From an uncultured Kangiella sp. (lineage in GTDB: Bacteria > Pseudomonadota > Gammaproteobacteria > Enterobacterales > Kangiellaceae), in assembly GCA_947503435.1 (NCBI GenBank), contig CANNDL010000002.1, positions 62,001 through 126,000 of the forward strand: a stretch of 64,000 bases of DNA, written 5' to 3'. The translations under genes were made by a program, and so were the position numbers. Shown here one piece after another: positions 34,600 to 50,278 of the stretch; the first letter of the stretch is position 1; every line of letters begins with the position of its first letter. The notes below the pieces were generated by a model that was given only the letters and a program-made list of their open reading frames with translations, was not told where the DNA came from and searched no databases.

Positions 34600-36018
34600 T
34601 TACTCTATGGAATTAACCAAAAATTGCCAATTTGAAGGGTTTTGCAAGATTTTAGGGGCCTTGTTGGCTCCAATCATTAAAGGAATATGCGCCGCAGTCA
34701 CAGTGGTTAGGTTCCATGTGGGGTCGACAGCATGCCATTTATCATCATAGAAAGCCTCTACCCATACATGACCTCCAAACCTTTGCTTATCGTCACCAAG
34801 ATATATCAAACCGCTCACTTCTCTAGCAGGGATCCCTACCCCATTTAACATTTCTACCAGTAATAAAGCATGCTCTGTGCAGTCGCCAATTTTATCTTTA
34901 AGAATATCATCCACTTGAAAACTTGAAGGTAGCGTTTGATAATCAATGTAATCATAGACAAACTTAGTTAAGGATTTTATTTTGCTTACTGTAGGGTCTG
35001 ACTGGTTAACAATCTGTAGAGCTAAACGGGTTGCCTTAGCGTGACTGGACAATGTTTTTGGAGTAGATGTCGCTTGATATGAGTACCCTTTACGCAAAGT
35101 TAATAAGCCATTGTTGGCATCGAGTACAGGGTGATTTTTAAATTCGGACAAAAATTGGTTTGGGAACAGCAGTTGTAACTGATTAATTGTAGCAACTTTT
35201 CCTAATGGTTTATCGACTTCAATACCAGAGCCTATATATAAATCTCTCTGCATTTCCGGATTAATAGTAACTCTACCTTCACTTGCTACAAAGGTCATGC
35301 CGTTGACTTTACTCTGCTTCACCAAATTAAATTCTTGATCAAAACTCAAGATCGTCGGTTCTGATTGATAGGAATCATTAATATCACTGGTATTTTGCAA
35401 CTGATGTTTGACTTTATAATAACTATTCGAGGAGTTGGGGCTATTCAGTAGTTCATATCGTGAATAGTGCACTCCGTAATCATCGTTATTAAATTCTTTT
35501 ATAATTAGTGCTTTTGATCGACTTTTTGCTTGCCTTACCCACGATCGTAGTGCCAAATAATCACCTAAATTATAAGTCGAAAGTTTATGGCTAGAAGTTT
35601 TAATTTCACCATTACGCGACTCTATTACATTAAGCATATCGGTATTCGTAATTTCCTTTGCAACTTCTAATCGTGGCTCTTGTGAATGAATGTTTATGGA
35701 GACCAATTGGTAAGGTGCAATAGCTGAAAATTCTAACACTCTTTTGAAACGAAACTCCATTGGTTGAGCTTGCACTCTTCCAATAATAAAGTCTTCTTCG
35801 GTAATAGATACCAGTTTATCAGTTCTTTTTAACTCTAGACTTGCCCAACCTACTGCTTGATTGTGCCAATTGATCTGGAACCAATTTTTAAATGGCTTTA
35901 CTTTAGCTGGTGACCAAGATTGATTTTCTTCTGAGGCTTTCTGAGCAATAAAAAATGCTGCTAAACCCAGAAGGCTTAGCAGCACTAATGAAAGTAGAAC
36001 TTTTATGGCTTTAGGCAT
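34600..36018 (-). CDS. Membrane-anchored transglutaminase-like protein
   Basis: A 472-residue protein with an N-terminal signal anchor (about residues 5-26) and a large periplasmic part. The C-terminal transglutaminase-like fold has the triad C380 (GDCTEHA), H417 (GGHVWVEA) and D432 (VDPTWN). The central ~300 residues are not recognised. Bacterial members are usually proteases or peptide-modifying enzymes rather than cross-linkers. It overlaps nhaC by 8 bases and is last in the five-gene run. Confidence 0.82.
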   Translation of the reverse strand: MPKAIKVLLSLVLLSLLGLAAFFIAQKASEENQSWSPAKVKPFKNWFQINWHNQAVGWASLELKRTDKLVSITEEDFIIGRVQAQPMEFRFKRVLEFSAIAPYQLVSINIHSQEPRLEVAKEITNTDMLNVIESRNGEIKTSSHKLSTYNLGDYLALRSWVRQAKSRSKALIIKEFNNDDYGVHYSRYELLNSPNSSNSYYKVKHQLQNTSDINDSYQSEPTILSFDQEFNLVKQSKVNGMTFVASEGRVTINPEMQRDLYIGSGIEVDKPLGKVATINQLQLLFPNQFLSEFKNHPVLDANNGLLTLRKGYSYQATSTPKTLSSHAKATRLALQIVNQSDPTVSKIKSLTKFVYDYIDYQTLPSSFQVDDILKDKIGDCTEHALLLVEMLNGVGIPAREVSGLIYLGDDKQRFGGHVWVEAFYDDKWHAVDPTWNLTTVTAAHIPLMIGANKAPKILQNPSNWQFLVNSIE

Positions 36019-37459
36019 CAGCCACTTTAGTAATTTTGAAATTAATCAGGCCATAAATAAATGAAACAATCGGATTGATTAAATTGAAGAAACAATAAAT
36101 CCAATAGGCACCAGTCGCTACTCCTAAAGTTCCCGCCATATATGCACCACAAGTATTCCAAGGGATTAATGGCGAAGTAATAGTACCCGCGTCTTCAAGG
36201 GTCCTTGATAAATTTTTAGCATCTAGTCCTCGACGTTTAAACTCAGCTCGATACATTCTGCCTGGTAACACGATTGCGATATATTGATCGGAAGCAATTA
36301 AATTCATGCCAATACAAGTTAATAAAACTGAGCCAATCAAAGATCCTGTAGATTTAGCCATGCCAATAATTGAGTGTACCAATTTTTGCAATAAGCCTGT
36401 TTTTTCCATCGCGGCGCCGAAGGTCATGGCGCAAATGATCAGCCAAATGGTATTAAGCATACTCGACATTCCGCCTCGGCTTAATAAACCATCGAAAGCT
36501 TCAACACCTGTACTAATTGAAAATCCAGAGAACAGCGAGGTCCATATGCCCGAGATATAAACTGCTGCTGTCGACAACTCAGGATTGTTTACAAACTTCT
36601 CTATAACATTTCCTTGTAGTAACACAGCAAACAAACAGCCTAATAAAGCACCAGCCAAAATAGTTGCTACAGCAGGAACCTTTTTAAAGGCCATAATGAA
36701 AACAGCCAAAAGCGGCACTAGTGACCATATACTGACATTAAAGTTATCATCGATAAGCTTTAATGTATCCTGCAAACCTAACGCCGTTTCTGAAGGATCC
36801 TGGCGTAAGCCGATAACCGTAAAAATAATCATTGCTATGATGAGCGAAGGTAATGTTGTCCATACCATATGACGTATATGAGTAAATAAATCGGTACCAG
36901 TAATCGCCGGAGCAAGGTTGGTGGTATCCGATAAAGGCGACATTTTATCGCCAAAGTAAGCTCCAGAAATAATAGCGCCAGCAGTAATAGCAGGATCCAA
37001 GCCAAGACTTTCTGCGATTACTATCAGACTGATACCAATGGTACCGGCTGTAGTCCAAGAGCTACCAATACTTAATGAGACAACCGCGCAAATAACCGTT
37101 GATGCTACATAAAAGTATTCCGGAGACAAAACTTGTAAGCCGTAATAAATCATCGTAGGAACGGTGCCAGCAAGAATCCATGCTCCAATTAGCGCACCAA
37201 CCATCAGTAGAATTAGCATAGCTCCCATAGCTAAGCTGATCCCTTCTACAATTCCCTTTTCTAATTCTTTCCAAGATTGACCATTCAGCAAACCAATAAT
37301 TATTGCGACTGATGCTGCAAGAATTAATGCAATTTGATTTGCTCCATAAGAAGAATCGGAACCATATAGTTGTACTGATACATATAACAAAACGATCAAC
37401 AAAGTGATCGGAATAATTGCCTGCAAAATACTCGGCTGTCGGCTTTGTGAATCTACCAT
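36011..37459 (-). CDS. nhaC: NhaC-family Na+/H+ antiporter
   Basis: A 482-residue inner-membrane antiporter with about 12 helices. Family marks are GSSWTTAGTIGISLI and GAYFGDKMSPLSDTTNLAP, the latter with the conserved acidic residues of the ion site. A C-terminal DAGTITSPLIPWNTCGAYMAGTLGV is typical of NhaC. Malate/lactate antiporters are close relatives, so ion and substrate are not fixed. It lies 10 bases after the second amidohydrolase. Confidence 0.9.
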   Translation of the reverse strand: MVDSQSRQPSILQAIIPITLLIVLLYVSVQLYGSDSSYGANQIALILAASVAIIIGLLNGQSWKELEKGIVEGISLAMGAMLILLMVGALIGAWILAGTVPTMIYYGLQVLSPEYFYVASTVICAVVSLSIGSSWTTAGTIGISLIVIAESLGLDPAITAGAIISGAYFGDKMSPLSDTTNLAPAITGTDLFTHIRHMVWTTLPSLIIAMIIFTVIGLRQDPSETALGLQDTLKLIDDNFNVSIWSLVPLLAVFIMAFKKVPAVATILAGALLGCLFAVLLQGNVIEKFVNNPELSTAAVYISGIWTSLFSGFSISTGVEAFDGLLSRGGMSSMLNTIWLIICAMTFGAAMEKTGLLQKLVHSIIGMAKSTGSLIGSVLLTCIGMNLIASDQYIAIVLPGRMYRAEFKRRGLDAKNLSRTLEDAGTITSPLIPWNTCGAYMAGTLGVATGAYWIYCFFNLINPIVSFIYGLINFKITKVADA

Positions 37460-37469
37460 TTATAGTTCC

Positions 37470-38750
37470 TTATTTTCTGTAAGCAGTATTTTTATCAGTG
37501 GTAATATCTTTATAACGGTCACGTAAGCGAGAGGCTTTGGTTGTCTTGTCCGTCAGCTTGCCATCTACAACGACTTCGACAGGACTAGTTGTTACTTCTA
37601 AAGGATCGCCATCCCAAATTACCAATTCTGCATCATAACCAGGCAAGATTCTGCCATAGGTATCTGCCCCGCCGAATAAACGCGCAGGATTAACAGTGAA
37701 TGCTTTTAATGCTTTATCATATGGTAAACCATAGCTAACCGCAGTGCCGGCTGAATGACGGACCGTATGAGCGTTATGAGTATTTTGGAAACTTTGTCCT
37801 AAGAAAATTAGATTCACGCCAGCTTTATCTAGCAACGCTGCATTATCAATACGTTGTCCTAATGCTTCAAAACTTCTTGGAATATTATCCATCGGGTCAA
37901 GCATCACAGAAATATTAGCGCGTGCCAAATCTTTAGCCACCATCCAGGCTTCAGCTCCACCTTTTACGATCAAGCGTATATTGTTCTTCTGAGAAAATCT
38001 CAAAAGCGCTTTAATGTCAGCTGCTCGTTGCACATTCATTACTAATGGTATTTGGCGATCGATTAAAGCTTGCAAAGCTTTTAAGTCATCAAGTGAGGTG
38101 AATAATTCACGATACTCACCAGACAAGATGGCTTCATAGTTATCAGCATATTCTCGCGCTTCATCCAGCAAGCTCTGCAATTGCTTTAAAGCGCTAGCTC
38201 GAGAACCTCCTGCAATATTAGAACCTCTTTCACCGTATGAACCAAAGATAGCAACATCTTTTTTAATCAGCGGGTGATAGTCACCATTTAGACTCATAAT
38301 AGCGGCCTGCCCAAATAAAAGGTGATCACCAAATGGTGGAGCTACTAATGTTCGAGTTACGCCATTTGCTCGGTTGTGTGGAATCAAGGTTGAATGAGGG
38401 TTAAAAGCTTCCTCGATACTAAAGCTTGCACCCGATAATTCATCCTGAGTAACTGAATCGCCAGTTTGGTTCAGCGCGTCAATTTCTACCAAGCCTAAGC
38501 TGTTAGCTACTGCAAATATACCTGGAGTCACCTGTTGGCCATTGGCATCTATAATCTTATCTGCTGTAACAGATAAGTTAGAGCCTACCGCTTTGATTTT
38601 TCCATTTTCTATTAAGATGTCTGCCTGATCCAAAGTCCCTTGCGATGATAACGTATGAACCTTCGCATTTTTAATTAACAATGTATCTGCAGTAACGGTA
38701 GAAGTTATCAATATAGCCGCTGAAGCGACTAAAGCTTGTAAATACCTCAT
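37470..38750 (-). CDS. Exported amidohydrolase-fold protein lacking metal ligands (predicted pseudoenzyme)
   Basis: A 426-residue protein with a cleavable signal peptide (ends near STVTA-D). The fold is amidohydrolase-like: N-terminal beta sandwich, TPGIFAVANSLG where the metal motif should be, and C-terminal GYDAELVIWDGDPL. Compared with its upstream neighbour, D105, H107 and H109 of DVHSH are replaced by A80, A82 and S84. The later VHNH, TFHH and HSD positions read VMNV, VKGG and GQS. It is therefore unlikely to be a metal-dependent hydrolase. It overlaps the neighbour by 4 bases, so a heteromeric partnership is plausible. Confidence 0.85.
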   Translation of the reverse strand: MRYLQALVASAAILITSTVTADTLLIKNAKVHTLSSQGTLDQADILIENGKIKAVGSNLSVTADKIIDANGQQVTPGIFAVANSLGLVEIDALNQTGDSVTQDELSGASFSIEEAFNPHSTLIPHNRANGVTRTLVAPPFGDHLLFGQAAIMSLNGDYHPLIKKDVAIFGSYGERGSNIAGGSRASALKQLQSLLDEAREYADNYEAILSGEYRELFTSLDDLKALQALIDRQIPLVMNVQRAADIKALLRFSQKNNIRLIVKGGAEAWMVAKDLARANISVMLDPMDNIPRSFEALGQRIDNAALLDKAGVNLIFLGQSFQNTHNAHTVRHSAGTAVSYGLPYDKALKAFTVNPARLFGGADTYGRILPGYDAELVIWDGDPLEVTTSPVEVVVDGKLTDKTTKASRLRDRYKDITTDKNTAYRK

Positions 38751-40150
38751 AGTCTATTCTCCTGTGGCTTTAACGCACCTAAGTCAAAGTCGCTGCTTGG
38801 CTGACTCGCTTTATCATTTCGGTCATACTTTAATGCGCCATCAACAAAGACTTTTTCAGCTTTTGTATAAACACTGAAAGGATTGCCATCCCAAATGACT
38901 ATATCTGCCATTTTACCTGCTTCTAACGAGCCCGTTTCTTCGCTTACACCTAAAGATTGTGCTGCATTTATGGTGATCCATTTAATGGCATCCTTTGGCT
39001 GAATATTTAATCCCATTTGATTACCAGAAGTCATTGCTTTAGCAGCTTCTTTGTTCAAATGTTGAATTCCAACTGCTGAATCCGAATGAACAATGGCACA
39101 AGCGCCCGCTTTGTCCACTAAAGCTACATTCTCTGGAATAGTGTCATAAGCTTCTTGCTTAAAACCCCACCAATCCGACCACATAGCTGAACACACATCG
39201 TTTTCTGCTAATAAATCAGCAATTTTGTAGGATTCAATAGCATGGTGGAAAGTGGAAACTTTATAGTCAAACTCTTTAGCAATCTCCATCATCACGGCCA
39301 TTTCATCGGCACGATAACAATGGTTATGCACTAAAATTTCACCATTAAGAACACCCATCAAAGTATCCATCTGCAAATCGCGCTTTGGTTTTTTTCCTGG
39401 CTTACCAGCTTCAACAGAATCATTGTAAGCATCCCATTGTTTCTTATAATCTTTCGCCTTAATCCAAGATGCTCGATAACCTGCAACATTACCCATACGC
39501 GTAGATGGCGAACGACCTTTAGAGCCGTAGACTCGCTTAGGATTTTCACCGCAAGCCATTTTCATTCCATGCGGAGCGTTAGGGAATTTCATATCCATCA
39601 CGGTTCGACCAAGAACATTTTTCAAGGTAACACCACGACCGCCGACTAAATTTGCCGAGCCGGGTAATATTTGCATCGAGGTAACGCCGCCTGCTAAGGC
39701 TAAACTAAACTGTGGATCTTGTGGCCAGACTGAATGTTCGGCCCAAACTTCTGCTGTGACTGGCGCCGTCATTTCATTGCCATCAGCGCTAGTCAGCACT
39801 CCTGGTGCAGGGTATACACCTAAATGTGAATGTACATCAATAATACCTGGCGTAACCCACTTCCCTTCAGCATCAATAACTAATACATCATCACCTGTTG
39901 GCTCATCACCATCTTCTGTAACAGAGATGATTTTGCCGTCTTTAAAATAAACCGAGCCATTATCTATCTGTTCGCCCGTTGCGGTTAACAAAGTGGCATT
40001 TTTAATAAATACTGGTTGAAATTCTTGTACTTTGTATTGACTAGCAAATGGCTTAGCATCTGCCTTTTCATCTTGTGAATCATCGGCACAAGAAACAACA
40101 ACAGCGCTTAAAAGCGCTGCTATGCCTAATTTTATTAATTTCATATTCAT
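38747..40150 (-). CDS. Amidohydrolase-family lipoprotein
   Basis: A 467-residue protein of the amidohydrolase superfamily (imidazolonepropionase/dipeptidase-like). The signal sequence ends in a lipobox VVSC (C21), so it should be lipid-anchored in the envelope. Metal ligands are visible: H107 and H109 in IIDVHSHLG, histidines in LVHNHC and STFHHA, and the aspartate in IVHSDSAVG. The C-terminus has GKMADIVIWDGNPF. Substrate is unknown; peptides or cyclic amides are possible. It is second in the run, 14 bases after the NSS transporter. Confidence 0.88.
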   Translation of the reverse strand: MNMKLIKLGIAALLSAVVVSCADDSQDEKADAKPFASQYKVQEFQPVFIKNATLLTATGEQIDNGSVYFKDGKIISVTEDGDEPTGDDVLVIDAEGKWVTPGIIDVHSHLGVYPAPGVLTSADGNEMTAPVTAEVWAEHSVWPQDPQFSLALAGGVTSMQILPGSANLVGGRGVTLKNVLGRTVMDMKFPNAPHGMKMACGENPKRVYGSKGRSPSTRMGNVAGYRASWIKAKDYKKQWDAYNDSVEAGKPGKKPKRDLQMDTLMGVLNGEILVHNHCYRADEMAVMMEIAKEFDYKVSTFHHAIESYKIADLLAENDVCSAMWSDWWGFKQEAYDTIPENVALVDKAGACAIVHSDSAVGIQHLNKEAAKAMTSGNQMGLNIQPKDAIKWITINAAQSLGVSEETGSLEAGKMADIVIWDGNPFSVYTKAEKVFVDGALKYDRNDKASQPSSDFDLGALKPQENRL

Positions 40151-40164
40151 AGAAATCTCACTAA

Positions 40165-41556
40165 TTAGAATAATTGAATACCAAAGAATCTATCCAAAAT
40201 TGTAGTGATAGCAATTGCACCTAGAATAACTGGGCATATATAGCTCACTGCAAAATTAATGTACTTAGTTACTAATGGGATAGCACTTTCGCGCCCAATC
40301 GCCATCTCTTCGTTTAAATTGTTAGTTTTCCAAACATAAGCTACGAAGATCGAGATTAATGCGCCACCAATTGGTAAAAAGGTATCGCTAGCAATAAGAC
40401 CGATAAAGTCCATAAAGTTAGTCGCACTTTCGTTATTACCTAAAGTCACAAAGTTTGTCAGCGCATCCACATTGCCGTTGGAAAGCATCGATGGAATACC
40501 TAATAAGAAGATAAACCCAGCCATACCCCAAACAGCCATTGGACGTTTGATTTTCTTTTCGTCAACTAGGTAAGCCACTGGAACTTCAAGTAAAGATACC
40601 GTTGAAGTTAAAGCCGCAAAAGATAATAGCAAGAAGAATAAAGAACCAATTACAATGCCCAATGTTGGTCCTAAGCTTTCAAAAACACCTGGCAGAGTTG
40701 CAAATATCAGTCCTGGACCACCTGCTACGCCTTCCATACTACCTTGGCTTAAATAAGCCACGAATGGGAAAATCATCAAACCAGCTAAGAACGCTATAGA
40801 GACATCCGTTAAAGTAATAAGCGCTGCTGAGCGAACAATGTTCTGTTTTCTGGAAACATAAGAACCGTAAGTGATAAGCGCACCCATTCCTAAAGATAAG
40901 GAGAAGAAAGCTTGGCCCAGTGCGGAATAAATCACTTCTCCGTTTATTTCAGAAAAATCCGGAACTAAGTAAAACTTAATTCCTTCCATGGCTCCATCTA
41001 AAGTCATTGCGTAAAAGATTAAGCCCAAAATTAAGACAAACAATGTTGGCATTAATATTTTTGCGGCTTTTTCAATCCCGCCTGAAATACCCTTAGAAAC
41101 AATAAAGGCAGTCACAGCCATAAAGACAATGCCGTATAGACCTATTTTGGTCCAATCGGTAATAAAGGTTCCAAACTGTTCTCCGATACCAAAGTTACCT
41201 TGAACCATTTCTAAGAAATAACCAAAAGCCCAGCCAGCAACAACGTTATAAAAAGATAGAATAAGAACACCAGCGATAATGCCTAATAAGCCAATGATGG
41301 ACCAATTACCATGACCGAGCTTTTTGAAAGCACCGACTGGGTTTAATTGAGTTTTACGACCAATGGCAATTTCTGAAACCATTACCGGAAAACACAACAT
41401 AAAACAGAATGCTAAATAGAGGACCACGAATGCGGCACCGCCGCCTTGCCCTACTTCAAATGGGAATTTCCAAATATTGCCTAAGCCAACAGCTGAGCCA
41501 GCTGCCGCCAAGATAAATCCAATTCGTGAATTAAATTGACCACGATTCGTTGCCAT
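40165..41556 (-). CDS. Sodium-dependent amino-acid transporter (NSS/SNF family)
   Basis: A 463-residue inner-membrane symporter with 11-12 helices. The N-terminal AAAGSAVGLGNIWKFPFEVGQGGGAAFV is the NSS signature that forms the Na+ and substrate site in LeuT relatives. SLSLGMGALITYGSYV marks helix 6. It is first in a minus-strand run with the amidohydrolases, NhaC and transglutaminase. The likely substrate is an amino acid or related amine released by the exported enzymes, which is inference. Confidence 0.92.
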   Translation of the reverse strand: MATNRGQFNSRIGFILAAAGSAVGLGNIWKFPFEVGQGGGAAFVVLYLAFCFMLCFPVMVSEIAIGRKTQLNPVGAFKKLGHGNWSIIGLLGIIAGVLILSFYNVVAGWAFGYFLEMVQGNFGIGEQFGTFITDWTKIGLYGIVFMAVTAFIVSKGISGGIEKAAKILMPTLFVLILGLIFYAMTLDGAMEGIKFYLVPDFSEINGEVIYSALGQAFFSLSLGMGALITYGSYVSRKQNIVRSAALITLTDVSIAFLAGLMIFPFVAYLSQGSMEGVAGGPGLIFATLPGVFESLGPTLGIVIGSLFFLLLSFAALTSTVSLLEVPVAYLVDEKKIKRPMAVWGMAGFIFLLGIPSMLSNGNVDALTNFVTLGNNESATNFMDFIGLIASDTFLPIGGALISIFVAYVWKTNNLNEEMAIGRESAIPLVTKYINFAVSYICPVILGAIAITTILDRFFGIQLF

Positions 41557-41746: not shown

Positions 41747-42811
41747 ATGAAAAAATTTCTTTACTGTCAGATATTTATCTCTTTGTATATTTTAGCTGGC
41801 TGCCAATCCTTTGCTGATAAGTCATTAGTATTAGCTGAACCAATCTCAAATAACGCTGTAGCTACCGCAACCGTTTTGAATGCTGGCACAGAGGAAGCGT
41901 TACTCTATTCCTTTAATGGCTTGAAATCAGGCAAAAGCTGGAAAGATGTTAGTTCTAGTACTTTTGCAGTGAACCCTAAATCCGGCGTAGAAAAAATACT
42001 GCCTGATGTCCCCGGAGCAAAAGGACGGCTGGCATCTATTGCAGCCACTGTTAATAATCAAATCTATATTTTTGGTGGCTATACCGTAGAACAAGACCAT
42101 TCGGAAGTCTCAACTCCAGAGGTTTATCGATTTGATCCTAGCAATGAGACTTATGAGCTAGTCACCAATATGCCAACTCCTGTTGATGACTCGGTAGCAC
42201 TGGTTTATCAAGATCGCTATATCTATTTAATTAGTGGTTGGCACAACGATGGCAATGTATCTTTGGTGCAAGTATTGGATACCCAAAATATGAGTTGGCA
42301 CCAAGCAACGCCTTATCCTGGCGCACCAGTATTTGGTCATGCAGCAGGAATTGTTGGCAATCAACTGGTCGTTAGTGATGGAGTCAAAGTTTTAAACGTT
42401 GTTAATGGCAAACGCCACTATGGCATCAGTGATGATAATTACTTAGGTATCATTAATAGCGAAAACTTCAAAGACATTCATTGGCAAAAACTTGCGATGC
42501 ATCCCGGTTCAGCTCGCTATCGAATGGCAGCAACAGGTTCGCAGCGTTTAAATAAAGTGATCTTTGTTGGCGGAAGCAGCAATCCCTATAACTTTAATGG
42601 TATTGGTTATAACGGCGTTGCTAGTGAGCCCAGCAGTTTAATTTTTGCATTCGATTTTGCAAGTCGCCAATGGCAAAGACTGGGTGAGCAAAAAACTCCT
42701 AGCATGGATCATCGCGGGCTATTAGAAGTCGAAGGTAACTTCTATATTTTGGGTGGCATACTAAACAATCAGCAAACCACCTCAAAAGTATTTGAATTGA
42801 AATTAGATTAA
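41747..42811 (+). CDS. Kelch-repeat lipoprotein
   Basis: A 354-residue protein with a lipoprotein signal (lipobox LAGC, C19) and a beta-propeller of kelch repeats. Typical blade strings are IYIFGGYTVE, YIYLISGWHNDG and FYILGGILNN. It resembles N-acetylneuraminate epimerase/galactose-oxidase propellers, but no catalytic set can be assigned. Its last 9 bases overlap the convergent acyl-CoA dehydrogenase gene. Divergent from the NSS operon. Confidence 0.82.
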   Translation: MKKFLYCQIFISLYILAGCQSFADKSLVLAEPISNNAVATATVLNAGTEEALLYSFNGLKSGKSWKDVSSSTFAVNPKSGVEKILPDVPGAKGRLASIAATVNNQIYIFGGYTVEQDHSEVSTPEVYRFDPSNETYELVTNMPTPVDDSVALVYQDRYIYLISGWHNDGNVSLVQVLDTQNMSWHQATPYPGAPVFGHAAGIVGNQLVVSDGVKVLNVVNGKRHYGISDDNYLGIINSENFKDIHWQKLAMHPGSARYRMAATGSQRLNKVIFVGGSSNPYNFNGIGYNGVASEPSSLIFAFDFASRQWQRLGEQKTPSMDHRGLLEVEGNFYILGGILNNQQTTSKVFELKLD

Positions 42812-44606: not shown

Positions 44607-46292
44607 CTAATCGGACTTATTCGCTCTGAAATTTGTCCAATATTCAGCGACCGTCTGCTTCATATCCTTATGAAGCAACAAGATTCCTATCAAGTTCGGT
44701 ATGGTCATGAGAGCTACCGTGACATAAGCTAGGTTCCAAATTATCGTGGCATCAATAACCGAAGCTAAGAAGAATAAACCTACATACACAACCCGATAAG
44801 GCATGACAGCACTTGGGCCAAACAAATAGGTTGCTGCTCTGTCACCATAGTAAGACCAAGCAATTGCAGTGGTAAAGGCAAACAGCAATAAGCCGAGAGA
44901 AACAATGTATTTACCGTTCTCACCCATAACACCTTTAGTGAAAGCTTTAGCCGTTAATTTCACAGAGTGAATTAATGATTTGCCATTAACAACAATACTG
45001 GTATCTACAAGTCTGCCATCTTTTACGATGATTTCTCCTGTCATTGCCTGGCCATTTTTATCGGTATACATCACTTCTTCTGCAATTGAGCGAGCATTCA
45101 ATAGTGTATAACCATTGGAAATAGGCTTACCATCTTGCACCGCAATTGAGCCAGTGAAATCAGAAATGTTACCGCTATCTTCCGACTTAGCATCTAAATG
45201 CTTAAATAATTTAGACACATCATCTTCATTTTTATCGCTATAGTCGCCAACAATAAATTGCATGTCAGCTCTGTCGAATTGATTTTGATGTTTTTCAGTC
45301 CAAACGCCCGAAGATAAAATAACAAGACCTGTCAAAGTACAAATTAAAATAGTATCAATGAATGGTTCAAGTAGTGACACCATACCTTCTGATGCTGGCT
45401 CATCACCCTTTGCAGCTGCGTGGGCAATAGGAGCAGAACCTTGCCCAGCTTCATTCGAAAATAATCCACGATTAATACCGCGATCCATGGCATAAGCAAA
45501 ACTTGCACCTAAGAAGCCGCCAATCGCTGCTGAACCACTAAATATACTACTAAAAATAGCTTGGAAAGAAGGAAGGATATTTTGGTAATTGTACGCAATT
45601 ACTAAAATTGCACCAATTACATAAACAACCGCCATAAATGGAACTACACGTTCAGCAACTTTAGCAATACGCTTGATACCGCCAATAATTACCATGGCTA
45701 ATAACACAGCTAACACGGCACCAGTAATCCAATTAGGTATCTGGAAAGTATCATTCATCGACTCGGCGATGTTATTAATTTGAGGCATGTTGCCCGATCC
45801 AATCGAACTAACAATAGTGGCCAAAGCAAATAATACTGCCAACCATTTCATGTTTAGTTTCTTTTCCATGAAATACATTGGGCCACCGGCCATTGTGCCA
45901 TCAGCGGTTTTTTCACGATATTTATGCGATAAAGTAACTTCTACAAATTTAGTGGTCATACCCAAGAAAGCTGTTATCCACATCCAGAATAAAGCTGCCG
46001 GGCCCCCTAAAAAGATGGCAAGTGCTACACCGCCAATATTACCTGTACCAACTGTACCTGAAAGCGCTGTCGATAAAGCAGCAAAATGAGACGTATCGCC
46101 AGGAGCATCTTTTTTAGTATATTTACCTCGGACAATTCTTGTGGCCTGACCGAAGTAACGGATTTGCGGAAATCCAAGATACAATGTGAAGAATAAACCC
46201 ACACCTAGTAATAAAATAATGAAATATATATGAGAGCCTAAATAGCCATCTAAGAATAATATGGCATCATTTATAGCGTTTAAAATGTCCAA
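44607..46292 (-). CDS. Alanine/glycine:cation symporter (AGCS) with inserted domain
   Basis: A 561-residue AGCS-family sodium symporter. Family signatures are [27 protein letters not shown] and [21 protein letters not shown]. About 110 polar residues (around 330-440) are inserted between the helix ending VILSSGVW and the conserved [21 protein letters not shown]. This makes the protein much longer than the ~470-residue norm. The insert should be extracellular/periplasmic by position, and is of unknown role. Likely substrate is alanine or glycine. Confidence 0.9.
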
Positions 46293-47530: not shown

Positions 47531-50278
47531 TTATTCAGCGGCGTCAATTTTAGCCTGATCACCAGCTTTTATTATTGATATTTCATCCAACTTCAAGTGA
47601 CGACGGAAAGCATCATTAACTTCCTTTACAGTTAATTTACTCACTTTTTCCTCGTAAGCTTTGTCCCATTGCATAGTACGGTTCAAATCAATATTACCAG
47701 TTAAAGTAGCCACTAAACGGTTATCTTTAGCTCTATCGATACGATTACCTTGCAATACACCTTTACGAGCATCATCTAATTCTTGTTGAGTGAATCCATC
47801 TTTAATGACTCGCTCAAATTCTTCCTTAAAGCCTTGCTCAACTTTTGCTAAATTTTCTGGTGCGCATATTGCGTAAGCACCAAAAGTTGCATTGTTGTCA
47901 TATGAACTAGCATTAAACCAAGAGCCTGCGCCGTAACTTAAACCATCTTTTTGACGCAGACGAGTCGCTAAACGACTTGAAATAAAACCACCGCCAAACA
48001 TTTGGTTAGCCATCATTAATGCAGGATAATCTTCATGGTCATCACGAATAGGTAAACTAATCATGGCACCAAAAGCTGCGCCCGCTTTATCTGGCGTATT
48101 AACAAACTTATTGATCGCTTCAACGTCTTTAATTTCACGCTCAATTCTTTGATACGGAACTACAGACTCCCAATTACCTATAGTGCTATCTAGTTTTGAT
48201 TTAACATTGTCAGTCGCAAAATCACCTATTAAGGCAATATCTGCATCCTGCGCACCCATAAAGTTCTTATGGAACTCTTTCAACTCTGAAGTTTTCACGG
48301 CCTTAATGGCTGCAATTTCGTCGTCAATGTCCATACTGTAGTACGGATGTGATTCATCATAAGGGCTTAAATGACGACTTAGTTGGCGAAACACTTGTGT
48401 TGTAGGCTGCTGTTTTTGCTGCTCTAAACCGACAACCATTTCTTGCTTTAAGATCTCGAGTTCTTTCTCATCAAACCGTGGATTTTTAAGCACTTCTTCA
48501 ACCAAATCTAATACTGCAGGTAGGTTTTCTTTGGTGGTTTGAATCCGAACACCAGAGCTTGTTGAGCCACCGTAAGCAGAAACATTAGCTTTTAACTTGT
48601 CAAATTCAGCTTGTAATTCTTCACGAGTATATTTTTCAGTACCGCGATCAAGCATGCTTCCAGCTAAACGAGGAATGACATTCAAATTACGTAAATCCTC
48701 TAGATTACCTAGGTCAAAATTAACACGAACTACAACTGATTCACCTCGAGTTTTCTTGGGTAAATATACAACTTTAGCTCCATTAGAAAGCTCACCTTGA
48801 GTAACGCGTGAGTCGATATTGTCATGAGAAGGATCGAAGTCTTCACCTTGTGCAACCTCTTCACGTCCTTCGTAGCCTTCTAGCATTTTCTTAATATCAG
48901 CTTTAGCAAAACGCTCAATCGAGTCAGCACGATCAGGTTCTTTTTCTGGAATGTATAATCCAAGTGTACGATTATCATTAACAAACAATTCGTCAGCTAC
49001 CCGTTGAACATCTTCAACGGTTACATTCTCTAAACGATCACGATTTAAGAACAACATTCTCCAGTCGCCCATTCCGATCCATTCAGTTAAACCAATAGTC
49101 ACACTTTGCGAATTATTAAAACGCAGTTCAATTTGCTTTAATAACTTAGTTTTAGCACGCTCAACTTCTTCTTTGGTAATAGGTTTAGCTGCTGTACCTT
49201 CTAAAGTATTTAAAAAGGCTTCTTCAGTAGGCTCAAGATTTTTATCTTTAGCCACTTGTGCCATAAACACCATTGCGCCTGGCTCCGCCAACTGAAAAGC
49301 AAAGCCAAAAGTACTAGCGGCCAATTTATTTTTAACTACTTCCTTGTGCAAACGACCAGTTTCACTATCGCCCATAATTTGAGTCAAAATTTGCACTGCC
49401 GCATAGTCTTCATCTGCGCCAGCAGGCGTTTTATACATCGCACCCACCATTTGCACGTCACCAGTACGGCGGACTACAACCTTACGCTCACCATCTTGAA
49501 TTGGCTCTTCTGTATAAAGTTCAGGAATAATTCGAGTTGGTTTCTTAATATCGCCAAAATAGTTATCGATTTTCTTAATCAAATCAGCTTCATCGACTTT
49601 ACCAGCCACTATTAATGTCGCATTGTCTGGCTGATAATACTTTCGGTAAAATGCCTGAAGGTTTGAAATATCAACGTTTTCTAAGTCTGCACGAGCACCA
49701 ATAGTGGTTTTTCCATAATTGTGCCAATCAAAACCTGTGGCTAGTAAACGTTGGAATAAAACTCTAAAAGGACTGTTCTCACCATTTTCAAGCTCATTTC
49801 GAACAACCGTCATTTCGCTATCTAAATCTTTTTTCGCGATAAATGAGTTGATCATACGGTCAGCTTCTAAATCTAATGCCCAGTTAAGATTTTCTTCTGT
49901 GGCTGAGAAAGTTTCGAAATAGTTAGTGCGATCAAACCAAGTAGTACCATTTGGCTCAGCACCATGATCAGTAAGTTCTTTTGGGATATCAGGATGATTA
50001 GGCGTGCCTTTAAAAACCAAATGCTCAAGTAAGTGAGCCATACCGGTTTCGCCATAATTTTCATGCTTGGAACCTACATGGTAAACAATATTCACGGTAA
50101 TAGTTTCTTGAGTTTTATCTGGAAATATAAGGACTTGTAGACCGTTATCGAGGCGATACTCGGTAATTCCTTCAACAGACGTAACTTTGTCAACGCCCTT
50201 TGGAAGCTTTGCAAAGCTGGTGGTGGTCGCTACTGCCAAAGTTATGGCTAGAGCCGTTTTCTTAAAATTAAACTTCAT
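47531..50278 (-). CDS. M16-family zinc metalloprotease (insulinase/pitrilysin type)
   Basis: A 915-residue exported peptidase with a cleavable signal (MKFNFKK... to SFA-K). The inverted zinc motif H82-x2-E85-H86 (HLLEH) lies in GMAHLLEHLVFKGT and the third ligand is E162 in VVRNELENG, 76 residues on. The second M16 half (about residues 490-915) lacks an HxxEH motif and acts as the paired inactive domain. It is likely a periplasmic peptide-degrading enzyme. Monocistronic, with hairpin terminators on both sides. Confidence 0.93.
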   Translation of the reverse strand: MKFNFKKTALAITLAVATTTSFAKLPKGVDKVTSVEGITEYRLDNGLQVLIFPDKTQETITVNIVYHVGSKHENYGETGMAHLLEHLVFKGTPNHPDIPKELTDHGAEPNGTTWFDRTNYFETFSATEENLNWALDLEADRMINSFIAKKDLDSEMTVVRNELENGENSPFRVLFQRLLATGFDWHNYGKTTIGARADLENVDISNLQAFYRKYYQPDNATLIVAGKVDEADLIKKIDNYFGDIKKPTRIIPELYTEEPIQDGERKVVVRRTGDVQMVGAMYKTPAGADEDYAAVQILTQIMGDSETGRLHKEVVKNKLAASTFGFAFQLAEPGAMVFMAQVAKDKNLEPTEEAFLNTLEGTAAKPITKEEVERAKTKLLKQIELRFNNSQSVTIGLTEWIGMGDWRMLFLNRDRLENVTVEDVQRVADELFVNDNRTLGLYIPEKEPDRADSIERFAKADIKKMLEGYEGREEVAQGEDFDPSHDNIDSRVTQGELSNGAKVVYLPKKTRGESVVVRVNFDLGNLEDLRNLNVIPRLAGSMLDRGTEKYTREELQAEFDKLKANVSAYGGSTSSGVRIQTTKENLPAVLDLVEEVLKNPRFDEKELEILKQEMVVGLEQQKQQPTTQVFRQLSRHLSPYDESHPYYSMDIDDEIAAIKAVKTSELKEFHKNFMGAQDADIALIGDFATDNVKSKLDSTIGNWESVVPYQRIEREIKDVEAINKFVNTPDKAGAAFGAMISLPIRDDHEDYPALMMANQMFGGGFISSRLATRLRQKDGLSYGAGSWFNASSYDNNATFGAYAICAPENLAKVEQGFKEEFERVIKDGFTQQELDDARKGVLQGNRIDRAKDNRLVATLTGNIDLNRTMQWDKAYEEKVSKLTVKEVNDAFRRHLKLDEISIIKAGDQAKIDAAE

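Follow-up and report, generated by a model that had tools for sequence, protein, structure and literature searches.

In the window, that is, the whole stretch of 64,000 nucleotides from an uncultured Kangiella sp. that was analysed, two overlapping genes encode an exported amidohydrolase with all five of its His/Asp metal ligands (A) and an exported paralogue in which these five ligands are gone (B). The pair is real and widespread, and no split pair was seen in the sampled Proteobacteria. The best explanation, to which a probability of about 60% is given, is that A and B form an exported heteromeric dipeptidase or N-acyl-amino-acid hydrolase, in which B would be an obligate pseudoenzyme subunit and which would feed amino-acid uptake.

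The gene pair in the window

First of all, two overlapping genes for amidohydrolase-fold proteins had been predicted at this place, and their coordinates, strand, lengths and 4-nt ATGA overlap (as shown in Table 1) are all as claimed. The 4-nt overlap between the stop codon of A and the start codon of B is found in 87 of the 113 non-repeated type I pairs (type I being the window's arrangement, a separate active A followed by an inactive B, with the window's own pair counted), and a 1-nt overlap is found in 4/113. A and B are paralogues, with 25% identity over 419 columns of a sequence alignment (E 3e-20). Both lie over the curated Pfam cut-offs of PF07969 (Amidohydro_3, 29.7 bits) and PF01979 (Amidohydro_1, 25 bits), A with 63.4 and 57.2 bits and B with 43.8 and 42.7 bits, respectively. 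The nearest solved chain is the same for both, namely 3ooq, an amidohydrolase of Thermotoga maritima without a function in its title, which is matched by A with E 2.2e-66 (227.7 bits, next solved chain 40.7) and by residues 24-397 of B with E 5.3e-34 (120.9 bits, next 36.2). In the printed alignment 3ooq has the ligands of A; there is a single molecule in the entry, and the chain matches from residue 7, with no N-terminal signal visible.

Table 1. Features of the gene pair and its operon, in positions of the window.
Feature	Position	Strand	Basis
SNF-family Na+-dependent transporter, first operon gene	40165..41556	-	PF00209; nearest solved chain 4us3
A, exported amidohydrolase with metal ligands, 467 aa	38747..40150	-	Pfam; nearest solved chain 3ooq
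A, D105-V-H107-S-H109, HxH metal motif	39824..39838	-	Alignment; codons computed from reading frame
A, E202, probable strand-4 bridging Glu, GENPK motif	39545..39547	-	Invariant in 94/94 A; ligand role putative
A, H277, strand-5 ligand	39320..39322	-	Alignment; codon computed
A, H303, strand-6 ligand	39242..39244	-	Alignment; codon computed
A, D357, strand-8 ligand	39080..39082	-	Alignment; codon computed
Stop of A and start of B sharing ATGA, 4-nt overlap	38747..38750	-	Reading frames
B, exported paralogue without the five His/Asp metal ligands, 426 aa	37470..38750	-	Pfam; 3ooq match
B, A80-V-A82-N-S84 where A has DxHxH	38499..38513	-	A-B alignment
NhaC Na+/H+ antiporter	36011..37459	-	TIGR00931, 445 bits, cut-off 370
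Transglutaminase-like protein, last operon gene in this genus	34600..36018	-	PF01841

As for export, A starts with a lipobox-like stretch, ..AVVVSC21, and is thereby a candidate for a lipid anchor, and B starts with a Sec-like signal, both as judged by eye. By crude ad hoc rules, 72 of the 116 type I A have a lipobox and 111 of the 116 B have a hydrophobic N-terminus, and several of the A that fail the lipobox rule show a lipobox or a Sec-like start by eye.

For structure prediction, a joined A-B chain (a read-through at locus L118) was modelled by AlphaFold2 from an alignment of 53 rows, five of which are joined pairs. Most of the core is well folded in the model (the mean pLDDT is 83.5, and mostly above 90 in the B part), and the pTM is 0.54, so the relative placement of A and B carries no confidence and the model holds no confident interface. 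Two further joined alignments made with MAFFT were dropped, as the B rows, or two A rows, seemed to lie on the wrong half, judging by how far they agree with the first row (about 18-28% identity). When the joined model was given to Foldseek, 3ooq came first, with a TM-score of 0.87 by target length and 34% identity, and this match presumably falls on the A half. The profiles and the B half of the joined model indicate that B has the amidohydrolase fold.

Metal ligands and domain architectures

Apart from type I, two other arrangements of active and inactive domains were found. Type II (L103-L110, L112, L113, L155-L157) has a protein of about 1000 aa in which a beta-rich stretch connects an inactive N-terminal domain (fN) to an active one (fA), with a separate inactive B (fB) encoded after it, that is to say, three amidohydrolase domains with one metal site. 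The natural fN-fA fusion of L156 was also modelled, with a pLDDT of 69.3 and a pTM of 0.62 from 13 rows, values too low for an interface to be read from the model. The diverged type (the second pair of L089, and L111) has an active first gene and an inactive second gene; its pairs (L111:4584-7201 and L089:13538-16071) sit in genomes that also carry a standard pair, and in its active member the strand-4 Glu is replaced by Thr.

It had been predicted that A keeps the HxH and the later His and Asp ligands, and all five are indeed seen. H107, H109, H277, H303, D357 and E202 are invariant in 94/94 A in the alignment of 94 A and 93 B. When all loci are tallied, repeats included, five of five His/Asp ligands are present in 118/119 A, in 13/13 fA and in 4/4 solo relatives (described below), and the exceptional A is a fragment (locus L122). 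In the B of the window, D105, H107 and H109 are aligned with A80, A82 and S84, and the changes at the later positions are likewise confirmed (H277 to N, H303 to G and D357 to Q), which leaves none of the five His/Asp ligands. The loss of every metal ligand from B, as originally predicted, thus holds for the five His/Asp ligands and is doubtful for the probable strand-4 Glu (E202 in A), which was not in the original list and with which a Glu of this B is aligned; from the proposed ligand set D105/H107/H109 the two His residues stand, and D105 only precedes the HxH motif and is presumably not itself among the usual ligands of the superfamily.

Among relatives, the tally for type I B (n = 118) is 97 rows with no ligand, 19 with one and 2 with two; for fB (n = 14) it is 3 with none, 8 with one and 3 with two, often the strand-5 His; and for fN (n = 13) it is 12 with none and 1 with one. 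More than two of the five ligands are found in none of the 118 B, 14 fB and 13 fN. A Glu stands in the E202 column in 41 of 93 B, in a region that is gappy, and the HxH columns of the 93 B drift freely through I, F, L, Y, D and through Q, R, S, E and others. Replacement ligands at the old metal site of B were also considered, and they are not supported by the sequence alignments, in which the old ligand columns vary freely and hold no other fixed metal ligand in the 93 B. Judged from its sequence, B cannot have the usual chemistry of the superfamily.

Co-occurrence, descent and selection

When the class sample (274 genomes) was searched with B, 14 loci were found, each with A adjoining B, and the search with A found the same 14 genomes. 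The 13 A and 14 B of these loci served as seed alignments, and the A alignment was then scanned against named genomes, where the best 80 of at least 515 confirmed stretches were kept. In 79 of these best 80 loci B lies directly downstream of A on the same strand, and in the exception (L063) the contig ends; the scan favours paired A, since its seed A had been taken from loci that also hold B and, of its two patterns, one (DWW..) is missing in solo relatives. In the phylum sample of 398 genomes, A was found in 62 and B in the same 62, side by side in all of them by coordinates, with thresholds chosen by the authors (E <= 1e-60 for A and E <= 1e-40 for B) and the best four candidate places scored per genome. 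At the thresholds used, neither A nor B was found alone in the 398 phylum or the 274 class genomes. Within the window's family, B of either type was found in 38 of the 40 genomes that were searched with B. The prediction of a conserved active/inactive pair is upheld by these counts: the two-gene order is kept and so is the loss (0/118 B with more than two ligands), no B with intact motifs occurs among the 118 B rows, and B is nowhere sporadic in the phylum sample (62/62 genomes).

The plasmid search with A gave seven records, of which two carry type I pairs (Qipengyuania and Novosphingobium) and one, from Hymenobacter, a broken type II-like locus; Bacteroidota were reached through this one plasmid locus alone, whose genes are apparently broken. 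The locus (L122:4323-8523, from a Hymenobacter volaticus plasmid) is annotated as several shorter genes, apparently through frameshifts or sequencing errors. A similar case is L016:2980-4167, where the A frame stops early (395 aa) and B is intact, owing to a frameshift or a sequencing error.

Active relatives that stand alone were also found, in Nonomuraea, Acetoanaerobium, Monoglobus and Cytobacillus, with no signal-like start and with no second copy within the 11-kb stretch. Since these four solo relatives keep the active site without an adjoining partner, the fold does not need B. They score 245-322 bits with the A profile, a range that includes the passing match of genome G392 (260 bits), and therefore the phylum scan would probably have shown such solos; none was seen. 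The absence of an adjoining partner from the four relatives without a signal-like start, together with the pairing of B with an exported A, would suit a B that is a dedicated secretion chaperone or an inhibitor, by which A would be kept inactive until it is in the envelope or metallated. The signal-like start in 111/116 B and the translation of B right after A also agree with such a helper, but type II has an inactive domain covalently joined to the active one, which suggests a lasting role and not a transient one, and this explanation is judged improbable.

In the tree of the domains, which is based on 74 hand-chosen rows, has no known root and contains long branches and some rows with odd composition, one branch, with support 95/84, has all active domains on the same side. 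The inactive domains fall into four distinct groups with good support (fN, type II B, type I B and diverged B), and the branch that parts the inactive domains of type II from the rest has support 81/79. Counted from the active side, active and inactive domains branch in parallel, the diverged type first and type I versus type II next, as joint descent of both copies from one early duplication would predict. A single loss of the metal site is likely on this tree.

For selection, ten close comparisons were made. For B, three of the ten allow dS to be estimated and give dN/dS values of 0.058, 0.068 and 0.093, the underlying dS values being 0.83, 3.21 and 2.59, of which only the first (<1) is sound; the dN/dS of A is 0.015 to 0.052 in 7/10. 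B also has a signature of E89, D98, N117, R127, R184, R242, D245, L409, R412 and Y413, each found in at least 68 of 74 B. From these sequence comparisons it is concluded that B is under purifying selection. In the ten comparisons the dN of B exceeds that of A by a factor of 2.0 to 4.7, and the ligand positions of B are free to vary, as might be expected of a decaying duplicate that is kept by chance; yet B is retained in Alpha- and Gammaproteobacteria wherever A was found, with low dN/dS and a near-invariant signature, and such decay is hardly credible unless the samples are strongly skewed. Live and dead copies adjoin in many bacteria, a recurrence that points to the dead copy as a functional component of the enzyme and not as a relic.

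The same conservation could also point to a second enzyme, in which B would act within the same substrate pathway by a newly acquired chemistry that needs no metal. The conserved polar residues that lie off the old ligand positions (E89, D98, N117, R127, R242 and D245) and the purifying selection speak for this, but the old ligand columns drift, and no fixed residues have taken over the former catalytic site. To our knowledge no metal-free hydrolase exists in the amidohydrolase superfamily, which is also counted against a catalytic B, and there is little likelihood that B works in this way.

Neighbouring genes, known relatives and the role of B

In the window the order of genes is SNF transporter, A, B, NhaC and transglutaminase-like protein. 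The SNF protein matches 4us3 with E 3.5e-93 (316 bits) and LeuT entries with E of about 1e-42 (about 149 bits), and 4us3 is taken by us to be MhsT, a transporter of hydrophobic amino acids. The order SNF-A-B-NhaC is kept in 17/17 type I loci fetched from the window's family (out of 31 others seen there), among them loci of distant genera with mostly different outer neighbours. The transglutaminase-like gene is present in 11/11 loci fetched from the genus, at 31-52% identity, and it has no match in L150-L154, while L143 ends inside NhaC. Neither transporter adjoins at the family's three type II loci. Among L001-L126, many of which are short, NhaC was matched in the window alone and the transglutaminase in none, and SNF was matched once, more than 6 kb from A.

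Outside this arrangement, a gene belonging to one cluster lies directly upstream on the same strand in 15 of the 79 other loci, and the checked representative of the cluster is a peptide transporter of the POT family. By their titles these loci belong to Alphaproteobacteria, mostly Sphingomonadales, or are unclassified, and a neighbour of the Qipengyuania plasmid pair is annotated as 'peptide MFS transporter'. A wider conserved operon was ruled out, as no neighbour cluster other than POT is found in more than 7/79 loci; linkage to a transporter is seen in two lineages only, and elsewhere the neighbours are diverse and mostly unannotated. The two different importers of amino acids or peptides in two lineages suggest that the release of amino acids is the job of the pair.

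Three other genes of the window were noted in passing. A Kelch-repeat protein with a lipoprotein-like start is encoded at 41747-42811 (+), divergent from the operon, and is matched in L138-L142 and not in L144-L149. At 44607-46292 (-) there is a sodium:alanine symporter of 561 aa, whose Pfam match covers 60-559 on a model of 392 positions, about 110 residues beyond the model length. At 47531-50278 (-) an M16 metallopeptidase of 915 aa matches Peptidase_M16 and Peptidase_M16_C ('inactive domain'), a two-domain layout that we take to be ordinary for the M16 family.

The linkage to transporters bears on another possibility, namely that B is a periplasmic ligand-binding protein derived from a hydrolase, which would capture or sense the substrate or product of A and hand it to A or to a transporter without a stable complex. 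B still matches the family profile, has a set of conserved polar residues and lies in operons with transporters in two lineages, all of which would fit such a protein. However, it should sometimes stand alone, and at these thresholds B never occurred without A in the phylum sample (398 genomes) or the class sample (274 genomes); moreover, the sister type fuses an inactive domain to an active one. A binding protein of this kind is considered unlikely.

Among known proteins, prolidases and Arg/Lys carboxypeptidases (PDB 3mtw, 3mkv and 3n2c; NF051886), which cleave amides and thereby free amino acids, come next among the relatives of A, both in sequence and in fold, together with imidazolonepropionases and the hydrolases of molinate and atrazine. 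A lies below the equivalog cut-offs of Xaa-Pro dipeptidase (NF051886, 65.1 bits against 500) and of imidazolonepropionase (TIGR01224, 61.9 bits against 298). We know of no inactive partner of the prolidases or the Arg/Lys carboxypeptidases.

Two paralogous subunits, one of which is catalytic and the other not, occur in the M16B heterodimers of Sphingomonas and in TldD/TldE, which differ from A-B in fold and superfamily. Another comparison is with the aspartate transcarbamoylase of Pseudomonas, whose pseudo-dihydroorotase chain is described as inactive yet necessary for the activity of its partner (PMC7053772). Likened by description, this chain resembles B in being an inactive homologue of the amidohydrolase superfamily and differs in having a transcarbamoylase, and not an active amidohydrolase, as its partner; it gives a precedent within the same superfamily for an inactive but needed partner. 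The pseudo-dihydroorotase subunit is cytosolic. With regard to A, the secreted, metal-dependent bile salt hydrolase of Bilophila is described as a member of the superfamily that splits an amino-acid amide outside the cytoplasm (PMC13081902). The paper mentions one isolate with three tandem copies, which are not called inactive, and the words 'inactive' and 'heterodimer' are absent from its text (PMC13081902). The likeness to A is one of description, a secreted amidohydrolase. Among open-licence PMC texts, no report on the A-B pair was found by titles and the starts of abstracts.

Returning to the heteromeric hydrolase, A would serve as the catalytic subunit and B as the non-catalytic one of a single exported enzyme, in physical contact with each other. 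The heteromeric reading is drawn from three observations: the sister architecture has an inactive domain naturally fused to an active one, the start and stop codons overlap, and the two genes co-occur. A, often tethered by a lipid, would hold the metal centre and cleave an amide, and the bond cut is most likely one that frees an amino acid from a dipeptide or an N-acyl amino acid. B, with its fold kept and its metal site gone, would be needed as a structural or regulatory partner, which may, for example, form one face of the assembly or order the active-site loops of A. The freed amino acid would then be imported, in the window's family by the upstream SNF Na+ symporter, and NhaC would return the Na+.

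A more general version is put forward tentatively, with somewhat less than even odds: the exported members of this amidohydrolase branch would work only as mixed assemblies of one live domain with one or two dead domains, which arose by a single ancestral loss of the metal site and subsequent duplication (B, then fN and fB), and the dead domains would complete or gate the live site. A single origin is compatible with the tree and with the series of type I, type II and diverged pairs.

Inactive partners of active enzymes are known; here, in an exported branch of amidohydrolases, the dead copy was never found missing. The branch, in one architecture of which the dead copy is doubled and fused, would be a clean system for learning what a pseudoenzyme subunit adds. 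There is also a warning for annotation: one B gene carries the label 'amidohydrolase family protein' although the usual chemistry is beyond its product. Activity tests with A by itself could fail. The carriers, many of which are marine or soil bacteria by name, may exploit dissolved peptides or amides by means of the pair.
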